Shown here piece after piece: positions 12,596 through 23,384 of a stretch of 39,724 nucleotides of DNA. The notes beneath the pieces are model-generated. The model saw only the letters and a list, made by a program, of their open reading frames with translations. It was not told the DNA's origin and ran no database searches. Each line of letters opens with the position of its first letter. Positions within the stretch are counted from its first letter, which is position 1. The position numbers and the translations under genes were made by a program. Source of the DNA: Lachnospiraceae bacterium. Its GTDB lineage: Bacteria; Bacillota; Clostridia; Lachnospirales; Lachnospiraceae. The stretch spans positions 1 through 39,724 of the forward strand of contig JAEEZH010000058.1 in NCBI GenBank assembly GCA_016288495.1, given 5' to 3'.

Positions 12596-14077
12596 ATGAA
12601 CAAGAAACAGATTAAAGGCTGGCTCAAGCATGGCGATTTTATACTGATAGATATAATCCTGATGCAGCTGGCCTTTATAATTGCATATTGGCTTCACGAA
12701 GAGCCGGGCAATCCCTATGACGATGAGCGTTATGCTTTTCAGGCCGTGGTCATAGGGTTATGTCAGCTTGTCATCATTCTATTTTCCCAGAATTACAAGA
12801 ATATCCTGAGACGCAGGTGGTTTGACGAGATGATGGCGGTCTGCAGGTATATGGGCGAGATCATCATAGCGGCCCTGCTCTTTATCTTCATCATTCACCG
12901 GTATGAATCCACATCCAGACTTCAGTTTGGTTTCACCTCGGTGCTGTTTATCGTTTTCTCTTATACCTGCCGCTGTCTGCGCAAGGTCATACTGTTCAGG
13001 ACCAGTGCTTCGAAAGCGGAGAACAGGTCTATCATCCTGATCACATCCTATTCGCTGGTCCATGAGGCCCTTCAGGGGCTGACCGCTTCGGACGCTTATA
13101 TAGACTTTAAGGTTAACGGCGTGGTCCTTCTGGATGAACCGAATGAGAACATGGAACAGGAGGCCATAGAGCTGGAGGCACAGCTGGATATCCCGGTGCT
13201 TCCCCTCAATGATGAAGCCATATTTGAGATGGGACACGGCTGGGTGGACGAGGTGTTCATCCTTCAGCCCGACGATCTGCCTTTCCCCAGACAGATCATG
13301 GATGATTTCATGGAGATGGGCATCACCGTGAACTATTCTGTTCCGGCCATCAACAACGATAAGTGGCCTGTGGCGGACATGCGCAAGCTGGGGCGTTTCA
13401 GGGTGCTTACCAACAGCATAAAATTCATATCCGCGGGAGATATGATACTGAAGAGGCTGATGGATATCGCAGGCGGTATTCTCGGCTGTCTTATGACGGG
13501 CATCATTTTTATCTTTATCGCGCCCATCATATATATTAAATCCCCCGGTCCCATATTTTTTAAGCAGGAGAGAGTGGGTCTTAACGGAAAGACCTTTAAA
13601 ATGTATAAATTCCGAAGCATGTATATGGATGCGGAGGAGAGAAAAGCCGCCCTCATGGCCCAGAATAAGGTGGAGGACGGTATGATGTTCAAGATGGACG
13701 ACGATCCGAGGATCATCGGCAGTGAGAAAAAGGATAAGAAGGGACGTCCCGTGGGTATCGGCAATTTTATCCGCCGTACTTCGCTGGATGAATTCCCGCA
13801 GTTCATAAACGTGCTCAAGGGAGACATGTCGCTGGTGGGTACCAGGCCGCCCACATTGGATGAGTGGCAGAAGTATGACATGTCCCACAGAGTGAGGATG
13901 AGTATAAGACCCGGTATCACCGGTATGTGGCAGGTCAGCGGACGCAGCTCCATCACTGACTTTAACGAGGTGGTGAGACTGGACCGCGAATATATAGAAA
14001 ACTGGAAACTGTCGCTGGATATAAAGATCCTGCTCAAGACCGTGGTGGTGGTGATCATGCGAAGCGGGGCTTCATAG
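12596..14077 (+). CDS. Polyprenyl glycosylphosphotransferase (exopolysaccharide-type sugar transferase)
   Basis: N-terminal TM helices; KRLMDIAGGILG...IKSPGPIFFKQERVGLNGKTFKMYKFRSMYMDAE...RRTSLDEFPQFINVLKGDMSLVGTRPP...RPGITGMWQVSGRS. Confidence 0.95.
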   Translation: MNKKQIKGWLKHGDFILIDIILMQLAFIIAYWLHEEPGNPYDDERYAFQAVVIGLCQLVIILFSQNYKNILRRRWFDEMMAVCRYMGEIIIAALLFIFIIHRYESTSRLQFGFTSVLFIVFSYTCRCLRKVILFRTSASKAENRSIILITSYSLVHEALQGLTASDAYIDFKVNGVVLLDEPNENMEQEAIELEAQLDIPVLPLNDEAIFEMGHGWVDEVFILQPDDLPFPRQIMDDFMEMGITVNYSVPAINNDKWPVADMRKLGRFRVLTNSIKFISAGDMILKRLMDIAGGILGCLMTGIIFIFIAPIIYIKSPGPIFFKQERVGLNGKTFKMYKFRSMYMDAEERKAALMAQNKVEDGMMFKMDDDPRIIGSEKKDKKGRPVGIGNFIRRTSLDEFPQFINVLKGDMSLVGTRPPTLDEWQKYDMSHRVRMSIRPGITGMWQVSGRSSITDFNEVVRLDREYIENWKLSLDIKILLKTVVVVIMRSGAS

Positions 14078-14608: not shown

Positions 14609-14652
14609 TTGCCCCGTTTTTCGTAAAAGTGGCAAGTGTTGCCCTGTTGTGG

Positions 14653-14658
14653 TATAAT
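14653..14658 (+). promoter_or_regulatory. Extended -10 element (TGGTATAAT) of the Dlt-like operon
   Basis: TG-G-TATAAT; 13 bp inverted repeat GGCAAGTGTTGCC (14631-14643) sits just upstream. Confidence 0.7.
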
Positions 14659-14666
14659 AACACGAT

Positions 14667-16205
14667 ATGCAGACAAATATTTTGGAATATCTGGAATACA
14701 GTGCCGGACGGCTTCCCGACAAGGTTGCCTACGGCGACATAAAGGATTCCTTACGCTATGGTGAGCTGCTGGCTCTCTCAAAGCGTATCGGGTCGGTGAT
14801 AGCGCGTTCTCTTGAGGGAGTCAGAGTGCCTGTGCCGGTCTTCCTTAAAAAAAGTCCGGCTGCCCTTGCCGGCTTTTTCGGCGTTCTCTATTCGGGAAAT
14901 GCTTATGTTCCCCTGGATGTGGAGATGCCCGCTGCCAGACTGTCGCTTATCAAAGAGAATCTGAAGCCTGCCCTGGTGCTTACCGATGAGGAGCACAGGG
15001 AGACTGCCTCCGCTGTATTCGGTGAAGATGTCAGGATCCTGACCTGCGAAGAGATCCTCAGGGAAGAAGCGGATGAAGCTTTGCTCGAGGGCATAAGGGG
15101 CAGACATCTGGATACGGATCCGGCTTATGTGCTCTATACTTCGGGATCCACCGGAGTTCCCAAGGGCGTGGTGGTAAGTCACAGAAGCCTTATCGATTAT
15201 ATGGAGAGCTTCTGTCCCGCCGTAGGCGTGAGGGAGGATGATGTGATCGCTTCCCAGGCTCCCTTTTATTTTGACGCCTCATTGATCGATATTTACTGCA
15301 CCCTCAAAATGGGTGCCACTCTTTATATAGTGCCGCTGGAGCATTTCAGCATTCCCATAAGGCTCATGGAGTTTTTACAGGAAAGAGGCATCACCATGAT
15401 CAGATGGGTGCCTTCCGCCATGGGTATAGTTTCCACCTTCAAGGCGTTTAAGTCATTAAGGCCGGACAAATTAAGGCTTATAATCTTCGGTGCCGAATCC
15501 ATGCCGATGAAGTGCTTCAATTACTGGAGAGAGAATTATCCCGAGGCCGATTTTGTGCAGATCTACGGCCCCACGGAGATCACGGGCATATGTACCTATC
15601 ATTTTATAAAGGGAGATGTGTCGGATCTTACTGTCCTGCCCATAGGCAGGGCTTTGAAGAACAGCGGGGTATTCCTGCTGGATGAAAAGGATGAGCTGAT
15701 AGATGAAAAGATGAGCGGACAGGTGGGAGAGATCTGTGTGAAGGGCACCTGCCTGGCCCACGGATATTACAACGATCCCGAGAGGACTGCAGCTTCCTTC
15801 GTGAACAATCCCCTGAACCCGTATTATCCCGAGCGGATATACCGTACCGGTGACATGGCGTCATACAACGGAAAGGGTGAACTTGTCTTTGCGGGACGCA
15901 GGGATTTCCAGATCAAGCACATGGGTCACCGCATCGAACTGGGGGAGATAGAGAACGCTGCCAATTCCCTGGAGGCGGTGAGACGCTGCGCCTGTTTCTT
16001 TGATGAGAAAAAAAACAAGATACATATGGTCTTTGAGCCGGAGTCCGATAAAGAAGCCGGAGCGGATGAGACATATCTTATAAATGCTTTGGGAGAGAGG
16101 CTTCCCAAATATATGATACCGAATGTATTTCACAGTGTGGATTCCCTGCCCCAGACGGCTACCGGCAAGGCAGACAGGGTGAGACTGAAGGAAATGTTTT
16201 TGTAA
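14667..16205 (+). CDS. DltA-like amino acid adenylation enzyme
   Basis: YVLYTSGSTGVPKGVVVSH, FYFDASLIDIY, IYGPTEITGICTYH, YRTGDMASY, GHRIELGEIE, TATGKADR: A-domain core motifs. Confidence 0.93.
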   Translation: MQTNILEYLEYSAGRLPDKVAYGDIKDSLRYGELLALSKRIGSVIARSLEGVRVPVPVFLKKSPAALAGFFGVLYSGNAYVPLDVEMPAARLSLIKENLKPALVLTDEEHRETASAVFGEDVRILTCEEILREEADEALLEGIRGRHLDTDPAYVLYTSGSTGVPKGVVVSHRSLIDYMESFCPAVGVREDDVIASQAPFYFDASLIDIYCTLKMGATLYIVPLEHFSIPIRLMEFLQERGITMIRWVPSAMGIVSTFKAFKSLRPDKLRLIIFGAESMPMKCFNYWRENYPEADFVQIYGPTEITGICTYHFIKGDVSDLTVLPIGRALKNSGVFLLDEKDELIDEKMSGQVGEICVKGTCLAHGYYNDPERTAASFVNNPLNPYYPERIYRTGDMASYNGKGELVFAGRRDFQIKHMGHRIELGEIENAANSLEAVRRCACFFDEKKNKIHMVFEPESDKEAGADETYLINALGERLPKYMIPNVFHSVDSLPQTATGKADRVRLKEMFL

Positions 16206-16230: not shown

Positions 16231-16458
16231 ATGAAAGACAGGATTATCGAAATGCTGGAGGCGATCCATCCGGGGATCGATTATGAGACCGCATCTTCTC
16301 TGATCGACGACAGGATACTGGATTCCTTCGATGTGGTATCCCTGGTGGGAGATCTGATGGATGAATTCGACGTGGAGATCGGTGCCGATCTGATGGTGCC
16401 CGAAAACTTTAATTCCGTAGCCGATATAGTGGCTCTTATCGAGGGCCTGGAGGGCTGA
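16231..16458 (+). CDS. DltC-like acyl/peptidyl carrier protein
   Basis: 75 aa; IDDRILDSFDVVSLVGDLMDEFDVEI phosphopantetheine Ser motif (DSF). Confidence 0.92.
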   Translation: MKDRIIEMLEAIHPGIDYETASSLIDDRILDSFDVVSLVGDLMDEFDVEIGADLMVPENFNSVADIVALIEGLEG

Positions 16459-18044
16459 TGAGTTACGCATCTCTTTCCTTTGCCCTTTTTGTGATGGCTG
16501 CGCTGGTACTGTACTATATAGTTCCGGCCAGGTTCAGGTACATCATCCTTCTCATATTCAGTTATGTGTTTTATGTGATGGCCTGCAACAAATACGTGAT
16601 ATACATCATAGTCACCACGGTGAGCACCTATTTTGTGGGCGGCATGATGGACAGGGCCGATATATCGCTTAAAGAAGCGTTGGCCGCCGAGGGAGTACAA
16701 AAGGAAGAGAAAAAGGCTCTTAAGAAAAAGAACAAGAGCAGGAAAAAGACTTTGCTGACGGCGGCGCTGTTGTTCAATTTCGGGATCCTTGCGGTACTTA
16801 AGTACGGAGATTTTGTCATAGCGAATGTAAATCTCATAAAGCTGAACATCTTTCATTCCACGGATTTTATCGGTTTTATCAATCCCGTGCTTCCGCTGGG
16901 TATCAGCTTTTATACCTTCCAGTCTATGGGCTATCTCATAGATCTGTATTACGGAAAATATGAATATGAAAAGAGTTTCCTGAAGACCGCCCTTTATGTC
17001 AGCTATTTCCCGCAGATCATACAGGGCCCCATCAGCCGTTTCAACGAACTGTCAAAGACTTTGTTCACGGGGGCATCATGGGACAGCCTGAATCTGAAAT
17101 ACGGACTGTACCGGATATTCTGGGGGCTGTTTAAGAAACTGGTGGTCGCGGACAGAGTGGCCGTATACGTGACAAATACCATCGGTCAGTACAAGGAAGT
17201 GAGAGGGGTGTATCTGCTCATCGCCATCTTCTTTTATTCCATGCAGATCTATGGGGATTTTTCCGGAGGAATAGATATCACCATAGGCGTTTCCAGGCTG
17301 TTCGGGATAAATGTCACGGATAATTTTGACAGACCCTTTTTCAGCAAATCCGTTTCGGAGTACTGGAACCGCTGGCATATGACGCTGGGTACCTGGTTCA
17401 GGGATTATATCTTTTATCCCATGACGGTTTCCAAGGGGATGATAGACCTGGGGAAAAAGTGCAGGAAGATCTTCGGCGAAGCCCTAGGGAAAAGGGTTCC
17501 CATATATATAGCCATGTTTACCGTATGGTTTACCACGGGACTGTGGCACGGCGCCCAGTGGAGATATATCGTCTGGGGACTGCTGAATTTCCTCATCATC
17601 CTCATTTCCACCGAGTGTGAGGGCCTGTATGGACGGATAAACGCCCTTATGAAATGGGAGGGCACATTTGCCCAGCGGCTTTTCAGGGTGGTGCGGACCT
17701 TCCTGATAATGAGCTTCCTGAGGGTCTTTGACCTGTCATCCGAAGGCATATCACAGGCACTTTTCGTGATCAGAAAAGCCCTTACGGATATATCCGTCCC
17801 CGCCATGGATGTGATCACCGGGCTGGGACTGGATGAAAAGGAACTTAAGGCAGCTGTCATCGGGATCGTGATCATGTTTGTTTTTGATCTGATACAAAGA
17901 CGTGGCAGCGTTACCGACAGGGTAATGAAGGCTCCCCTCCCTTTGAGATGGGCCATCAGTGCGGCCCTGGTCATAGCCGTTGTGATATTCGGCAGTTACG
18001 GACCGGGATATGATGCCAGGACATTTATTTATCTTCAGTTCTGA
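16458..18044 (+). CDS. MBOAT family O-acyltransferase (DltB/AlgI-like) with C-terminal FxYxxF
   Basis: EYWNRWHMTLGTWFRDYIFYPM, FTTGLWHGAQWRYIVWG; protein ends TFIYLQF. Confidence 0.94.
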   Translation: MSYASLSFALFVMAALVLYYIVPARFRYIILLIFSYVFYVMACNKYVIYIIVTTVSTYFVGGMMDRADISLKEALAAEGVQKEEKKALKKKNKSRKKTLLTAALLFNFGILAVLKYGDFVIANVNLIKLNIFHSTDFIGFINPVLPLGISFYTFQSMGYLIDLYYGKYEYEKSFLKTALYVSYFPQIIQGPISRFNELSKTLFTGASWDSLNLKYGLYRIFWGLFKKLVVADRVAVYVTNTIGQYKEVRGVYLLIAIFFYSMQIYGDFSGGIDITIGVSRLFGINVTDNFDRPFFSKSVSEYWNRWHMTLGTWFRDYIFYPMTVSKGMIDLGKKCRKIFGEALGKRVPIYIAMFTVWFTTGLWHGAQWRYIVWGLLNFLIILISTECEGLYGRINALMKWEGTFAQRLFRVVRTFLIMSFLRVFDLSSEGISQALFVIRKALTDISVPAMDVITGLGLDEKELKAAVIGIVIMFVFDLIQRRGSVTDRVMKAPLPLRWAISAALVIAVVIFGSYGPGYDARTFIYLQF

Positions 18045-18050
18045 GGTGAC

Positions 18051-19100
18051 ATGATAAAGTATTTAAGACCCATGGCGGCGGTGGTGATCACCGTGGCCTG
18101 CCTGATGATAGCGGACAGGGTGTTCACGCCGAAATACATAAAAGAAAATACCGACGGCCGGATAACAGGTGAGTTTTATACACAGGCAAAGGACCCCGAT
18201 GTGGTCTTCCTGGGGGCATCTACCGTACATTACTGCGTGAGCCCGGCCCATATGTGGAAAACTGCCGGATTTACTTCCTACGACCGCTCCAATGCGTCAC
18301 AGACCATGTGGCAGAGCTATTATATGCTGAAGGATACTCTCAGATACACAAAGCCTTCACTGGTGGTACTGGATATCAGCTTTGTGAGGAACGGTGAGGA
18401 ATTCATAGAGGAGCCGTCCAACCGTAAAGCCATAGACGGAATGAGGGATCCCGCATCAAAGCTGGGGGCCGTTCTGAGTTCAAAGGGGGAAGATGAGGAG
18501 GTCTTATCCTACTTTTTCCCGGTCCTTCGTTTCCATTCCAGATGGAAGGAGCTTAGCGGGGATGACTGGCTATATGCTTTTAAAAGAGCCGATGTGACCT
18601 ACGATGGTTATCTGATGGACTTTGGCATAGCTCCCGAGCAGCATATATATGAGAATTCGGAGCCTCCCCTTGAGGCCTTTCCGGCAAAATCTTCCGATTA
18701 TCTTCACAGGATCATCTCCCTGTGCAGGGAACAGGGGATACAGCTGTTTCTGATGCGGACGCCTTCGTTTCAGACGGGATGGTATGATGAATACGATGAG
18801 ATGATGGGGGATATCGGTGAGGCCGAGGGTCTTAACTATGTGAATTTCACAAAGTATGTGGATGATATGGGAGTCGATGTGAGAGTGGATTATATCGACG
18901 ACGGCCAGCATATGAATGTGGTGGGCGCCCATAAGTTTTCCGGATATCTGGGGGACTATCTTAGGGAAAATTATGATCTGCCCGTCCATACCGGTGACGA
19001 AGTGTCGGCGCGCTGGGAGCAAAAGCTCAGACGTTACGAACAGGCTGTGGAAGAAGGCATGGATGATTATGAAGGGGCTCTTGAGTCCCTGCAGATATAA
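18051..19100 (+). CDS. DltD-like / SGNH-hydrolase-like membrane-anchored protein
   Basis: N-terminal TM; VVFLGASTVHYCVSP (block I Ser) and DDGQHMNVVGAHKF (D..H block); position after MBOAT. Confidence 0.82.
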   Translation: MIKYLRPMAAVVITVACLMIADRVFTPKYIKENTDGRITGEFYTQAKDPDVVFLGASTVHYCVSPAHMWKTAGFTSYDRSNASQTMWQSYYMLKDTLRYTKPSLVVLDISFVRNGEEFIEEPSNRKAIDGMRDPASKLGAVLSSKGEDEEVLSYFFPVLRFHSRWKELSGDDWLYAFKRADVTYDGYLMDFGIAPEQHIYENSEPPLEAFPAKSSDYLHRIISLCREQGIQLFLMRTPSFQTGWYDEYDEMMGDIGEAEGLNYVNFTKYVDDMGVDVRVDYIDDGQHMNVVGAHKFSGYLGDYLRENYDLPVHTGDEVSARWEQKLRRYEQAVEEGMDDYEGALESLQI

Positions 19101-19124
19101 ATTTTGACGGAGATTATTTATCAA

Positions 19125-20342
19125 ATGGAGAGTTCAAGAGAGATTTCCTTAAACAGAGCAGGGCAGCTGAAGGCGGCGATGAGTGATTATGTCTCTTTCA
19201 GGAAGTCGCACATAGAAGAGGAAAAGAAAAAAGACGTGGCCGGTATGAAAAAACGCCTTCTGGAGTATTTCGGTGCCGGTGAAGATGAGTGGAACGACTG
19301 GAAATGGCAGGTTAAAAACCGCATATCCTCCGCCGATGTGATAGGTGAATTCTTAAGCCTTTCAGAGGAGGAGAAAAAGGGGATAACCGATGTGGAAAAG
19401 ACTTACAGATGGGCTTGCACCCCCTATTATCTGTCTCTCATGTCACAGTCGGACCATACCTATCCCATAAACAGGATGGCCATCCCCAGCATAATGGAGA
19501 TGGATGATTACGGCAGCGCCGATCCCATGGATGAAGAGCATACAAACCCGGCTCCCTGTGTCACCAGAAGGTATCCGGACAGGCTCATCATAAATGTTAC
19601 CAGCTCCTGCGCCATGTTCTGCAGACATTGTCAGAGGCGAAGGCTTATCGGGGAATGCGATTCCACCAGGTCAAAGGAAGATATCCTTGCGGCCATACAG
19701 TATATCAGGGAAAATGAAGAAATCAGGGATGTGCTGGTGACAGGCGGAGATCCCCTTCTTCTGGACGATTCATATATCGAATTTGTCCTCAGGGAGCTGC
19801 GTACCATAGAACATGTCCAGATATTGAGGATAGGTACCAGGGTCCCCGTTACCATGCCCCAGAGGATCACTCCTGAGCTTTGCGCGATGCTTAAGAAATA
19901 CCATCCGCTTTTTATCAATCTGCAGTTTAACCATCCTGACGAGGTGACCGTGGAGGCAAAGAGAGCCTGTACGGCCCTGGCAGACGCAGGGATACCCCTG
20001 GGTAACCAGATGGTGTTCCTTAAGGGGATAAACGATGATAAATATATAGTCAGGCTGCTGAATGAGAGGCTTCTGATGGCCCGGGTAAAGCCTTATTATA
20101 TTTTCCATCCCAAGCAGGTGATGGGTACCAGACATTTTTCCATCCGCATATCAGAGGGGCTGGAGATCATGCGCTATTTAAGAGGACAGACATCGGGACT
20201 TGCGATTCCCACATACATTCTGAATGCTCCCTTCGGCCTGGGAAAGATACCGCTGCTTCCAGAATACATAATCGAGAATTCCGGCGGTACGGTCAAGCTC
20301 AGGACCTGGGAGGGCGGAGAAATAGAGATAAATGAAGAATGA
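19125..20342 (+). CDS. eam: KamA-family radical SAM aminomutase, predicted glutamate 2,3-aminomutase
   Basis: SSCAMFCRHCQRRR (CxxxCxxC), VTGGDPLLL, PLFINLQFNHPDE, FHPKQVMG, ILNAPFGLGKIPLLP. Tracked TTG at 19104; ATG 19125 preferred. Confidence 0.9.
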   Translation: MESSREISLNRAGQLKAAMSDYVSFRKSHIEEEKKKDVAGMKKRLLEYFGAGEDEWNDWKWQVKNRISSADVIGEFLSLSEEEKKGITDVEKTYRWACTPYYLSLMSQSDHTYPINRMAIPSIMEMDDYGSADPMDEEHTNPAPCVTRRYPDRLIINVTSSCAMFCRHCQRRRLIGECDSTRSKEDILAAIQYIRENEEIRDVLVTGGDPLLLDDSYIEFVLRELRTIEHVQILRIGTRVPVTMPQRITPELCAMLKKYHPLFINLQFNHPDEVTVEAKRACTALADAGIPLGNQMVFLKGINDDKYIVRLLNERLLMARVKPYYIFHPKQVMGTRHFSIRISEGLEIMRYLRGQTSGLAIPTYILNAPFGLGKIPLLPEYIIENSGGTVKLRTWEGGEIEINEE

Positions 20343-23340
20343 TTATTTCCTGGAAAATGACATAAGGGTTAATGAGAGACTGACAAAAGCGCTGCTGTTT
20401 TTTGTTCCGCTGATCTTTGTTTTCTATCTTCTGGTCAGCCGGCATATCTTTTCTTTTTCCGCAGGGCAGGTAACCGCTCTGGTCCCTGCGTGCTGTTTCT
20501 TTTTGCTTTCGCCTTATATCATCAGCCGCTTTAAGGTAGACAATACCTTTCTCAAATATTATATAGTCATCGATATTTCCATCTTTGTGGCCTTTCTCAA
20601 TATGGTCCCCCAGAGCAGGCTTTATCTGGCCTGTGTATTGGGTGTTGTTATTTCCCTATTATATTTTGACCCCATACTGACGGCTTTTTCCGGGGTCATG
20701 AATTATCTGCTGCTTTTTGCCATTGTGCTCTATGAAGCCTTTCTTAAGACCGACAGTTACCGCAGCGCCTTTTCGTCGGCCTTTTTAGGTCTGGGGATCT
20801 ACACCATAGAGTTTCTCATAGTATCGCCGGTGGCATATTTTATAGCCCTTAACGTGAAAAAGCGGATAGAAGAGGAAAACCATCTGGCCATGAGGCTGGA
20901 GGGGGCCACAAAGAGATATGAGCTGGCCCTTGAAAGCTCCAGGGACGTGATCTATGAATACGACATAGCGGAGGACAGGTTTACCTATTACGGCGTGCTT
21001 CTGGGAAGCGATAAGAGAGACCGTGAAGAGGCCAGGGAGGCAGTGGTCATCGAGCATATGATGGTAATGCTCCAGAGCGGGCACGTGCTCCATCCCGATG
21101 ATGTACGTCTCATTGAGAGCATCATAGCCGGAAACGATCAGGATCTGGTCCAGATCAGGATGGTAAATGGGGATGATTTTGACTGGTTTGAGGTAGAGAG
21201 CAACCTGATTTATGAGGATAATTATGCGGTGAGGATCGTCGGAAAGATCAGAAACATCACCGAAGCGAAGCTTGAGGAACAGGAGTTTCTGCATACTTCC
21301 AGAAAGGATTCCCTGACCGGTTTCTACGATAAGATAGTGGGCGTCAGGATCATACGCAGACATATGACCCAGGTGGGCAGGACAGATACACAGCAGTTTC
21401 TGTATATAGCCCTTAAAAATGCGGATGAGATCGCCAAGACCTGCGGTCAGGTTTATCTGGACGCGCTCCTTCTGAGGCTGGCGGATATTCTCATTGAGGA
21501 GATCTCGGATATGGATCTGCCGGTACGCCTTTCCAGGACGGAATTTGTCCTCTATCTGGTAAACAGGAACCCTGCCATGACAGACCAGCTCATGGTGAGG
21601 ATCAGGACGGAGCTTTCAAGAGTCTTTGTCAGTGAGGATATTCCCGAGGGAATGAATATCAGGATGGATGTTTTTGAATCCCTTAATGCCCTGGAGGAGG
21701 GCACTCAGATCAGCGAGGCTGACAGGGGATATTATGACGGCGAGGCTGACAGCTACAGAAGCGATATGGTGAGCTTTGCCTTCAACCTGTTGGAGAGGTC
21801 AAAGGATTTCGAGAGTGCGGTCAATCTGCTGCTGGACCGTATAGGCAATATGTACCGCCTGGATTCCGTGAGGATCCTGAAGGGTACCTCCATCAGGAAT
21901 GTGTACAGATGTGTCTATGAATGGATATCCGTGGAGGCCGAGAATGACAGCATAGGAAAGATACTGGGCACGGATACGGACGTCAGCGGCCTGAGACAGA
22001 AGCCGGATGTATTTTTGTGCGACAGTGCGGATATCAGTGAGGACGGAGGCTATTTCCTGTTCCAGGGAGCCACTTTTAAGGGCGCCATGAGAGCGATGCT
22101 CGAGGATACCCTGATGGAGATCACGAATAGCATGGCCACCTTCATCGGAAAGAGATTCGCGGACAGTGCCAACAGGGCAAAATCCGACTTCCTTTCCTCT
22201 GTTTCCCATGAGATACGCACTCCCGTGAATGCCATAGCAGGCTATGCGGACCTGATACTTCAGGAGTCCACTTCAAACGTGGTGGAAAACTATGCCGAGA
22301 ATATAAAGACTTCCTCAAACAATCTGTTGGGTATCATCAATGATATCCTGGATCTGTCAAAGATAGAGGCCGGAAAATTCCAGATTGTTCCCGACAGATA
22401 TTTCTTCCATGAGATCGTTCAGGAAGTCAAAAACATCATGTATATCCAGATCGGTGAAGCTCCCGTTTCGCTGGTCACCAACATAGATCCGAACCTGAGC
22501 GACGGACTCATCGGAGACGGTATGCGCATCAGGCAGATACTGATAAACCTGTTGAACAATGCCATCAAATTTACCGAAGAGGGTGAGATAGGGCTGGATA
22601 TCAGCTGGACCATAACCGCTCCCGAAGAGGGCGTGATGACCTGTTGTGTATGGGATACCGGGATAGGTATCAGGGAAGATGAGGTGGACAAGATCTTTTC
22701 GGCCTATGAACAGGCGGATACCAGACGTAATCACCGTATAAAGGGAACAGGTCTGGGCCTTGCCATCACAAAGGAACTGGTGGAGCTGATGAACGGTTCC
22801 ATAAGAGTGGAGAGTGAATACGAGAAGGGAACGAGGATCACCTTCACCCTTCCCCAGGAGGTATTTGATCCCACCCCCTATGATTATAATGAGAGCAAGG
22901 AAGTCAAAGCCTCAAAGAAACCTGTGGTGCCCTTTACCGCACCCTGGAGCCGCGTGCTCCTGGTGGATGACAACCAGGTCAATCTGGAGGTTGCAAAGGC
23001 TCTGCTCAGCCACTATAAGGTTATGATGGAGACGGCTTCAAGCGGCCGTGAGGCCCTGGCCCTTCTGGAGCAGGATACCTTCTTTGACCTCATCTTTATG
23101 GATCACATCATGCCCGAGATGGACGGCCTGGAGACGGCAACTGCCATAAGAAAGAGCGGGAACCCCGTGCTGGAGAGTATTCCCATAGTGGCCCTTACCG
23201 CAAATGCGGCGGCCAGGGATATGGAAGAACAGTTTATCCTGGCGGGGATGAACGGGTATCTGCAAAAGCCCATTGACCTCAATGAGCTGGCAAAGGTGAT
23301 GGTACGTTTCATACCGGAAGAGAAGAAGGAAGTATCCTGA
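20332..23340 (+). CDS. Hybrid sensor histidine kinase (TM - PAS-like - degenerate GGDEF - HisKA - HATPase - REC)
   Basis: SDFLSSVSHEIRTPVNAIAGY, GTGLGLAITKELVELMNGS, VLLVDDNQVNLEVAKAL...FMDHIMPEMDG; GGDEF-like region reads SRTEF. Confidence 0.93.
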   Translation: MKNDYFLENDIRVNERLTKALLFFVPLIFVFYLLVSRHIFSFSAGQVTALVPACCFFLLSPYIISRFKVDNTFLKYYIVIDISIFVAFLNMVPQSRLYLACVLGVVISLLYFDPILTAFSGVMNYLLLFAIVLYEAFLKTDSYRSAFSSAFLGLGIYTIEFLIVSPVAYFIALNVKKRIEEENHLAMRLEGATKRYELALESSRDVIYEYDIAEDRFTYYGVLLGSDKRDREEAREAVVIEHMMVMLQSGHVLHPDDVRLIESIIAGNDQDLVQIRMVNGDDFDWFEVESNLIYEDNYAVRIVGKIRNITEAKLEEQEFLHTSRKDSLTGFYDKIVGVRIIRRHMTQVGRTDTQQFLYIALKNADEIAKTCGQVYLDALLLRLADILIEEISDMDLPVRLSRTEFVLYLVNRNPAMTDQLMVRIRTELSRVFVSEDIPEGMNIRMDVFESLNALEEGTQISEADRGYYDGEADSYRSDMVSFAFNLLERSKDFESAVNLLLDRIGNMYRLDSVRILKGTSIRNVYRCVYEWISVEAENDSIGKILGTDTDVSGLRQKPDVFLCDSADISEDGGYFLFQGATFKGAMRAMLEDTLMEITNSMATFIGKRFADSANRAKSDFLSSVSHEIRTPVNAIAGYADLILQESTSNVVENYAENIKTSSNNLLGIINDILDLSKIEAGKFQIVPDRYFFHEIVQEVKNIMYIQIGEAPVSLVTNIDPNLSDGLIGDGMRIRQILINLLNNAIKFTEEGEIGLDISWTITAPEEGVMTCCVWDTGIGIREDEVDKIFSAYEQADTRRNHRIKGTGLGLAITKELVELMNGSIRVESEYEKGTRITFTLPQEVFDPTPYDYNESKEVKASKKPVVPFTAPWSRVLLVDDNQVNLEVAKALLSHYKVMMETASSGREALALLEQDTFFDLIFMDHIMPEMDGLETATAIRKSGNPVLESIPIVALTANAAARDMEEQFILAGMNGYLQKPIDLNELAKVMVRFIPEEKKEVS

Positions 23341-23347
23341 TAAAGAC

Positions 23348-23384
23348 AAAAAAACGCTCCGGCATATGCCGGAGCGGTCTTTGT
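23348..23384. terminator. Bidirectional terminator between the kinase gene and rpsT
   Basis: Perfect palindrome CGCTCCGGCATATGCCGGAGCG (23355-23376), flanked by A7 on the left (T-run for minus-strand rpsT) and a T-rich tail on the right. Confidence 0.88.

Follow-up and report, generated by a model that had tools for sequence, protein, structure and literature searches.

Which amino acid does the KamA homologue of this locus rearrange, and why is its gene placed behind a set of dlt-like genes? KamA homologues include lysine 2,3-aminomutase (LAM) and glutamate 2,3-aminomutase (GAM). The gene was found in a stretch of 39,724 nucleotides from a Lachnospiraceae bacterium (contig JAEEZH010000058.1, assembly GCA_016288495.1), which is called the window below. 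The operon features of the window listed here are on the + strand.

Signature Residues of the KamA Homologue

The open reading frame at 19125–20342 is real and encodes 405 aa counted from its ATG; an in-frame TTG is present at 19104. It is annotated here as GAM, a radical SAM enzyme with PLP, based on residues, family model, alignment and tree. The phmmer alignment to LAM (PDB 2a5h, E = 1.7e-115) has a single 2-residue gap, located upstream of the Cys motif; the region between this motif and the PLP Lys is free of gaps, as the first-pass annotation had read by eye. In ATG numbering, C162/C166/C169 (19608–19631) and K374 (codon 20244–20246) pair with C125/C129/C132 and K337 of LAM, so the radical SAM CxxxCxxC motif and the PLP Lys are both present. 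LAM D293 is opposite K330 in FHPKQ (codon 20112–20114), and LAM D330 is opposite N367 in ILNAP (codon 20223–20225). The two substrate-contact sites are 37 residues apart in both proteins. The earlier claim that Lys and Asn replace the two Asp residues at this spacing is thus borne out; the residue positions were also right, but their numbers had been counted from the TTG at 19104 and are 7 above the ATG numbering. The Arg corresponding to LAM R134, which binds the substrate carboxylate, is present in all KamA homologues tabulated. No second KamA homologue was found in the genome assembly that contains this gene, which is 82% complete.

Family Models, Survey and Phylogeny

The protein scores 600.4 bits against the GAM model TIGR04368 and 431.7 bits against the LAM model TIGR03820. 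It fails the LAM model, whose cut-off is 525.4 bits, and has Asp at neither lysine-contact site. It also misses the curated GAM cut-off of 650 bits. In the clade of sequences with Lys and Asn at the two sites (K/N), two members reach 695 bits (L026) and 650.1 bits (L028), and several others fall to 526–637 bits. The 650-bit cut-off is a conservative naming threshold and does not represent a mechanistic feature, so the assignment as GAM rests on the residues and the tree. Automatic annotation may label such excluded K/N GAMs merely as KamA family.

Among 97 KamA sequences, which take in 2a5h and a few sequences sharing one genome, 16 show K/N, 78 show Asp at both sites (D/D) and three are EpmB-like with Arg. 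In the class Clostridia, 42 of 391 genomes contain a match to the GAM model at E < 1e-158, of which 18 are over the curated cut-off. All 30 Clostridia GAM loci examined, including 18 over this cut-off, are K/N, and so is every one of the 8 to 10 order-level GAM loci examined. Judged from these sequences, the K/N signature is not a matter of chance. GAM of C. difficile was reportedly described by Ruzicka and Frey in 2007. That this enzyme itself has Lys and Asn, as stated in the first-pass annotation, is supported only indirectly, as the above-cut-off members of TIGR04368 examined are all K/N.

In the maximum-likelihood tree, K/N sequences and GAMs form a single clade (100/100) with a long stem. 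The lysine-type KamA sequences are D/D and are separated from it at 100/100. The GAMs linked to the operon described below constitute one subclade of the K/N clade (100/99).

An enzyme that is a LAM after all, in an operon attaching β-lysine, would fit the overall similarity to LAM, but is hardly tenable. Both lysine-contact Asp residues are replaced, the GAM model is ahead by about 170 bits, the K/N clade is apart from the D/D sequences at 100/100, and the Arg in the pocket of the neighboring adenylation enzyme would be expected to repel the side chain of lysine. The identification as GAM, not LAM, which the first-pass annotation had proposed, is strongly supported by alignment, family model and tree, and the activity is inferred from it. 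Very probably the enzyme makes β-glutamate, an unusual amino acid, although there are no activity data.

Two other GAM loci show peculiar structures. In G059, the GAM gene has an in-frame TGA in place of the codon for the first radical SAM Cys (L134:9367–9369). As a search for tRNA-Sec gave nothing over the gathering score, a mutation or a sequence error is likelier than selenocysteine. In Clostridiales UBA1742 (L031:9998–15575), a K/N GAM gene is directly upstream of an NRPS-like gene, in which condensation, adenylation, carrier and reductase regions were recognized by eye, along with an apparent frameshift. This is a second pairing of GAM with an adenylation function.

Components of the Operon

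In the window, four genes precede GAM in a compact dlt-like operon, whose order is adenylation enzyme, carrier protein, MBOAT, SGNH protein and GAM. This context, which the first-pass annotation had overlooked, is more informative than the GAM residues.

The first gene (14667–16205) encodes a stand-alone adenylation enzyme of the DltA/NRPS A-domain type (PF00501; TIGR01733 over cut-off). Its pocket code is DAIRIGIGIK, in which Asp235, Arg278 and Lys517 correspond to D203, R246 (codon 15402–15404) and K501. It stays under the DltA equivalog model TIGR01734 (291.8 bits; cut-off 559.85). The closest PDB structures to its AlphaFold model are A-domains, and the fold search could not separate the DltA type from the other A-domains in PDB. 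A consensus scan alone, with 10 of 12 matches, indicated a promoter-like site, GTGGCA-18-TATAAT with an extended TG -10 (14629–14658). Its end is 9 nt away from the start codon of the adenylation gene; if this site is used, the operon mRNA may therefore be nearly leaderless.

The second gene (16231–16458) encodes a putative acyl/aminoacyl carrier protein of 75 aa with a DSFD motif and Ser32. Its database matches are weak, but the best ones are all carrier proteins, and it is 51–96% identical among the operon relatives. The third gene (16458–18044) encodes a DltB-like MBOAT protein (PF03062), which matches DltB in PDB at 2e-23 and scores 144.5 bits against the DltB equivalog model TIGR04091 (cut-off 375); membership of the MBOAT family is confirmed, whereas the DltB equivalog level is not reached. 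As read from the sequence, it contains the catalytic His364 in WHG, two extra hydrophobic segments at the C-terminus, and a terminal FIYLQF (codons 18024–18041) corresponding to the acyl-shuttle motif FXYXXF.

The fourth gene (18051–19100) encodes an SGNH protein for which no Pfam family reaches its cut-off. The fold was recognized with an AlphaFold model (pLDDT 88.5), whose top PDB match is DltD of Enterococcus faecium (E = 5.6e-5); a second DltD-type entry is at rank 20. The protein has an N-terminal membrane helix, the Ser nucleophile block GAST, and D283 and H287, both unchanged in 20 relatives. The features of an MBOAT-SGNH pair are thus present on both proteins.

Downstream, a hybrid sensor histidine kinase gene (20332–23340) overlaps GAM by 11 nt and is followed by a terminator-like hairpin (23355–23376, consensus scan). 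The kinase is beside GAM only in the genus of the window and not in G267 and G299; it was therefore rejected as a core member. A sugar transferase gene (12596–14077) was also rejected as a part of the system, as G002, the nearest relative, is the only other genome in which it adjoins the operon.

No DltX was found in the operon, which was the only region considered, and the 58-nt gap upstream of the adenylation gene is too short to contain one. With the DltA and DltB equivalog scores unmet, a different pocket (near-canonical DltA pockets are DLMVLCTVCK and DLAVVVGVAK) and a gap ahead of the adenylation gene that is too short for DltX, a D-alanylation operon was rejected. By analogy, the operon would nevertheless work like a Dlt operon; its function is inferred.

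Conservation of the Operon

The five-gene set is common to six Lachnospiraceae species in three genera (the window, G001, G002, G003, G267 and G299). It is on single contigs in G002, G267 and G299 (Bacterium C-53), and extends over contig breaks in G001 and G003. Intergenic distances in the GAM operons range from -35 to 112 nt. None of the other operon genes was seen within the ~1.5 kb flanks of 30 other Clostridia GAM loci and 10 order-level ones, or at the GAM loci L026–L032. No acceptor-polymer genes recur together with the operon.

β-Glutamate is a known compatible solute (review PMC1224877). It is conceivable that GAM makes free β-glutamate as a solute or a nitrogen store and that its position in the operon is incidental, especially as most GAM genes in Clostridia are not near dlt-like genes. 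This is considered improbable: the gene order is identical across the three genera and their six species, the SGNH and GAM genes of G267 overlap by 4 nt, and the pocket code of the adenylation enzyme tracks GAM and is altered where GAM has been lost, as described in the next section.

Adenylation Pocket Codes and Supply Genes

Close relatives of the adenylation enzyme (E < 1e-90) were found in 160 of 394 Lachnospiraceae genomes. For 82 operons, the ten pocket residues were taken from a MAFFT alignment, in which the control GrsA returned its known code. In operons with the code DAKC, an amino-acid racemase of the Asp/Glu superfamily (TIGR00035, PF01177) is adjacent in 26 of 30 cases, suggesting that they load a D-acidic amino acid. 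The code DVK..CNK is accompanied by a PLP decarboxylase of the DAP/ornithine type in 28 of 35 operons, usually directly after the adenylation gene. Arg at position 278 is seen in six operons, four of which contain GAM; those with GAM have the code DAIRIGIG[IV]K, and no code other than the Arg-278 type accompanies GAM in the 82 operons. Each pocket code represents one clade. Codes and supply genes are therefore not independent observations, and their association corresponds to a few evolutionary events.

The two Arg-278 operons without GAM have different explanations. In G003 there is a contig break. The G219 operon truly lacks GAM, and the sole KamA encoded elsewhere is a distant D/D homologue. 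G219 is the sister of G267 within the GAM-linked clade (99/95). Since this placement is within the Arg-278 clade, an ancestral GAM-less state was rejected, and loss of GAM is the simplest interpretation. Its pocket has changed to DAVRIGNGVK (I322 to N), and the shuttle end of its MBOAT is FIYGNI. G219 is the informative event for the link between the code and GAM.

The sister clade of the GAM-linked adenylation enzymes is racemase-linked. Between the two, Arg replaces Cys at 278 and Ile replaces Lys at 239. Asp-type adenylation codes have Lys at 278, and Glu-type codes may have Lys at 239. By these codes, each of the two pockets appears fit for an acidic amino acid, the charge having shifted position between them. 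Arg278 is compatible with any acidic amino acid, so L-Glu, D-Glu and Asp are not excluded as substrates. The adenylation enzyme could then use α-glutamate, D-glutamate or aspartate, and GAM could tune the glutamate pool or run backwards, a possibility to which the Asp/Glu-type racemase beside the sister clade lends some weight. It is still unlikely: the sister keeps Lys239 and Cys278, the pocket change coincides precisely with the clade to which GAM was added, and L-glutamate needs no dedicated supply gene.

Several other structures were observed in these operons. The racemase gene is just upstream of the adenylation gene in DAKC operons (e.g., L181:11814–12527 and L170:5515–6228), and in racemase-linked operons (L170–L173, L176, L180–L183) the nucleophile block of the SGNH protein is GDCE, with Cys where GAM-linked proteins have Ser (GAST, GSST, GPST). 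Examples of the decarboxylase genes are L178:6917–8110, L175:8088–9380, L184:6775–7968 and L185:9005–10255. The distant D/D KamA of G219 (L188:259–3546) is flanked by two genes whose products resemble, by eye, a phosphopantetheinyl transferase of the Sfp type and an ATP-grasp ligase.

Proposed Pathway and Its Significance

In the proposed pathway, GAM would act as the supply enzyme, converting L-glutamate to β-glutamate (3-aminoglutarate). The adenylation enzyme would activate β-glutamate and load it onto the carrier protein, with Asp203 predicted to contact the amino group and Arg246 the free carboxylate. In the β-amino-acid adenylation enzymes of macrolactam pathways, a conserved Asp also holds the amino group (PMC11284099). 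The carrier protein would pass the β-glutamyl group to MBOAT, which may move it across the membrane, to the Tyr residue in the FIYLQF motif at its own C-terminus. The FXYXXF motif carries the acyl group in PatA and is found on DltX in Dlt systems (PMC12148441). Finally, the DltD-like SGNH protein would take the acyl group from the MBOAT tail and esterify an exported extracellular polymer.

It is likely that GAM supplies β-glutamate to an aminoacylation system of the dlt-like kind. The signature residues, the clade, the operon and its conservation, the pocket code, the shuttle motif and the DltD-like fold are directly observed; the activity, the adenylation substrate, the direction of transfer and the product are inferred. 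The evidence also leans, less firmly, to a wider interpretation: in some Lachnospiraceae, β-glutamate would be attached to an extracellular polymer by a carrier-protein MBOAT-SGNH system having its own aminomutase, and this system would belong, as one branch, to a large set of dlt-like operons that do not use D-alanine but other amino acids, with a dedicated supply gene in each case. Independent GAM-linked lineages are few, which weakens the β-glutamylation reading.

Production of a small secreted β-glutamate conjugate, without any polymer ester, must also be considered, since GAM adjoins an NRPS in L031 and participates in incednine biosynthesis. A condensation domain is, however, absent from the operon, and an MBOAT with a shuttle motif and a membrane-anchored DltD-like SGNH protein are parts for the acylation of envelope polymers, which makes such a conjugate very unlikely.

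D-Alanine is the mainly known case of envelope aminoacylation. The operon suggests a cell surface decorated with β-glutamate, with β-glutamylation itself being inferred. A β-amino acid that is charged both positively and negatively would shift the surface charge differently from D-alanine, and its ester might be more stable than the D-alanine ester. The GAM family is already known, but its use in a surface aminoacylation operon seems new, and a role of GAM besides osmolyte or antibiotic synthesis is suggested. No report linking GAM or β-glutamate with Dlt or the cell wall was found in the open literature; most subscription journals were outside the scope, and an earlier description is still possible. 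Because pocket codes and supply genes are linked, testable amino-acid predictions can be made for dozens of uncharacterized operons of gut bacteria.

Comparison with Known Systems

The GAM of the window shares with the TIGR04368 family the radical SAM Cys motif, the PLP Lys, the Lys and Asn sites, and a clade with above-cut-off members. It differs in its sub-cut-off score and in its dlt-like operon, which is unseen at the other loci examined.

The Dlt D-alanylation system consists of DltA, DltC, DltB, DltD and DltX. An adenylation enzyme, a carrier, an MBOAT and a DltD-like SGNH protein in one operon are common to both systems. The window operon, on the other hand, has an adenylation enzyme that is not a DltA equivalog and has another pocket, an additional aminomutase, and a shuttle motif fused to MBOAT with no DltX seen in the operon.

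With PatA/PatB and other MBOAT-SGNH O-acyltransferases, the system shares the extra C-terminal MBOAT helices, FXYXXF and the partner SGNH protein. Those other pathways are described as carrier-less and acyl-CoA-using (PMC12148441), whereas here an adenylation enzyme and a carrier protein are encoded. The combination of a carrier donor with an MBOAT-fused shuttle is thus a mixed architecture.

The incednine pathway (aminomutase IdnL4, β-amino-acid adenylation enzyme IdnL1 and a stand-alone ACP) also combines a GAM-like radical SAM enzyme, an adenylation enzyme and a stand-alone carrier. In that pathway, decarboxylation of β-glutamate first yields 3-aminobutyrate, which is then activated and incorporated into a polyketide (PMC11284099). 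Both the decarboxylation preceding activation and the polyketide product distinguish it from the pathway proposed for the window. The operon seems to represent a novel variation on envelope acylation by MBOAT-SGNH systems.
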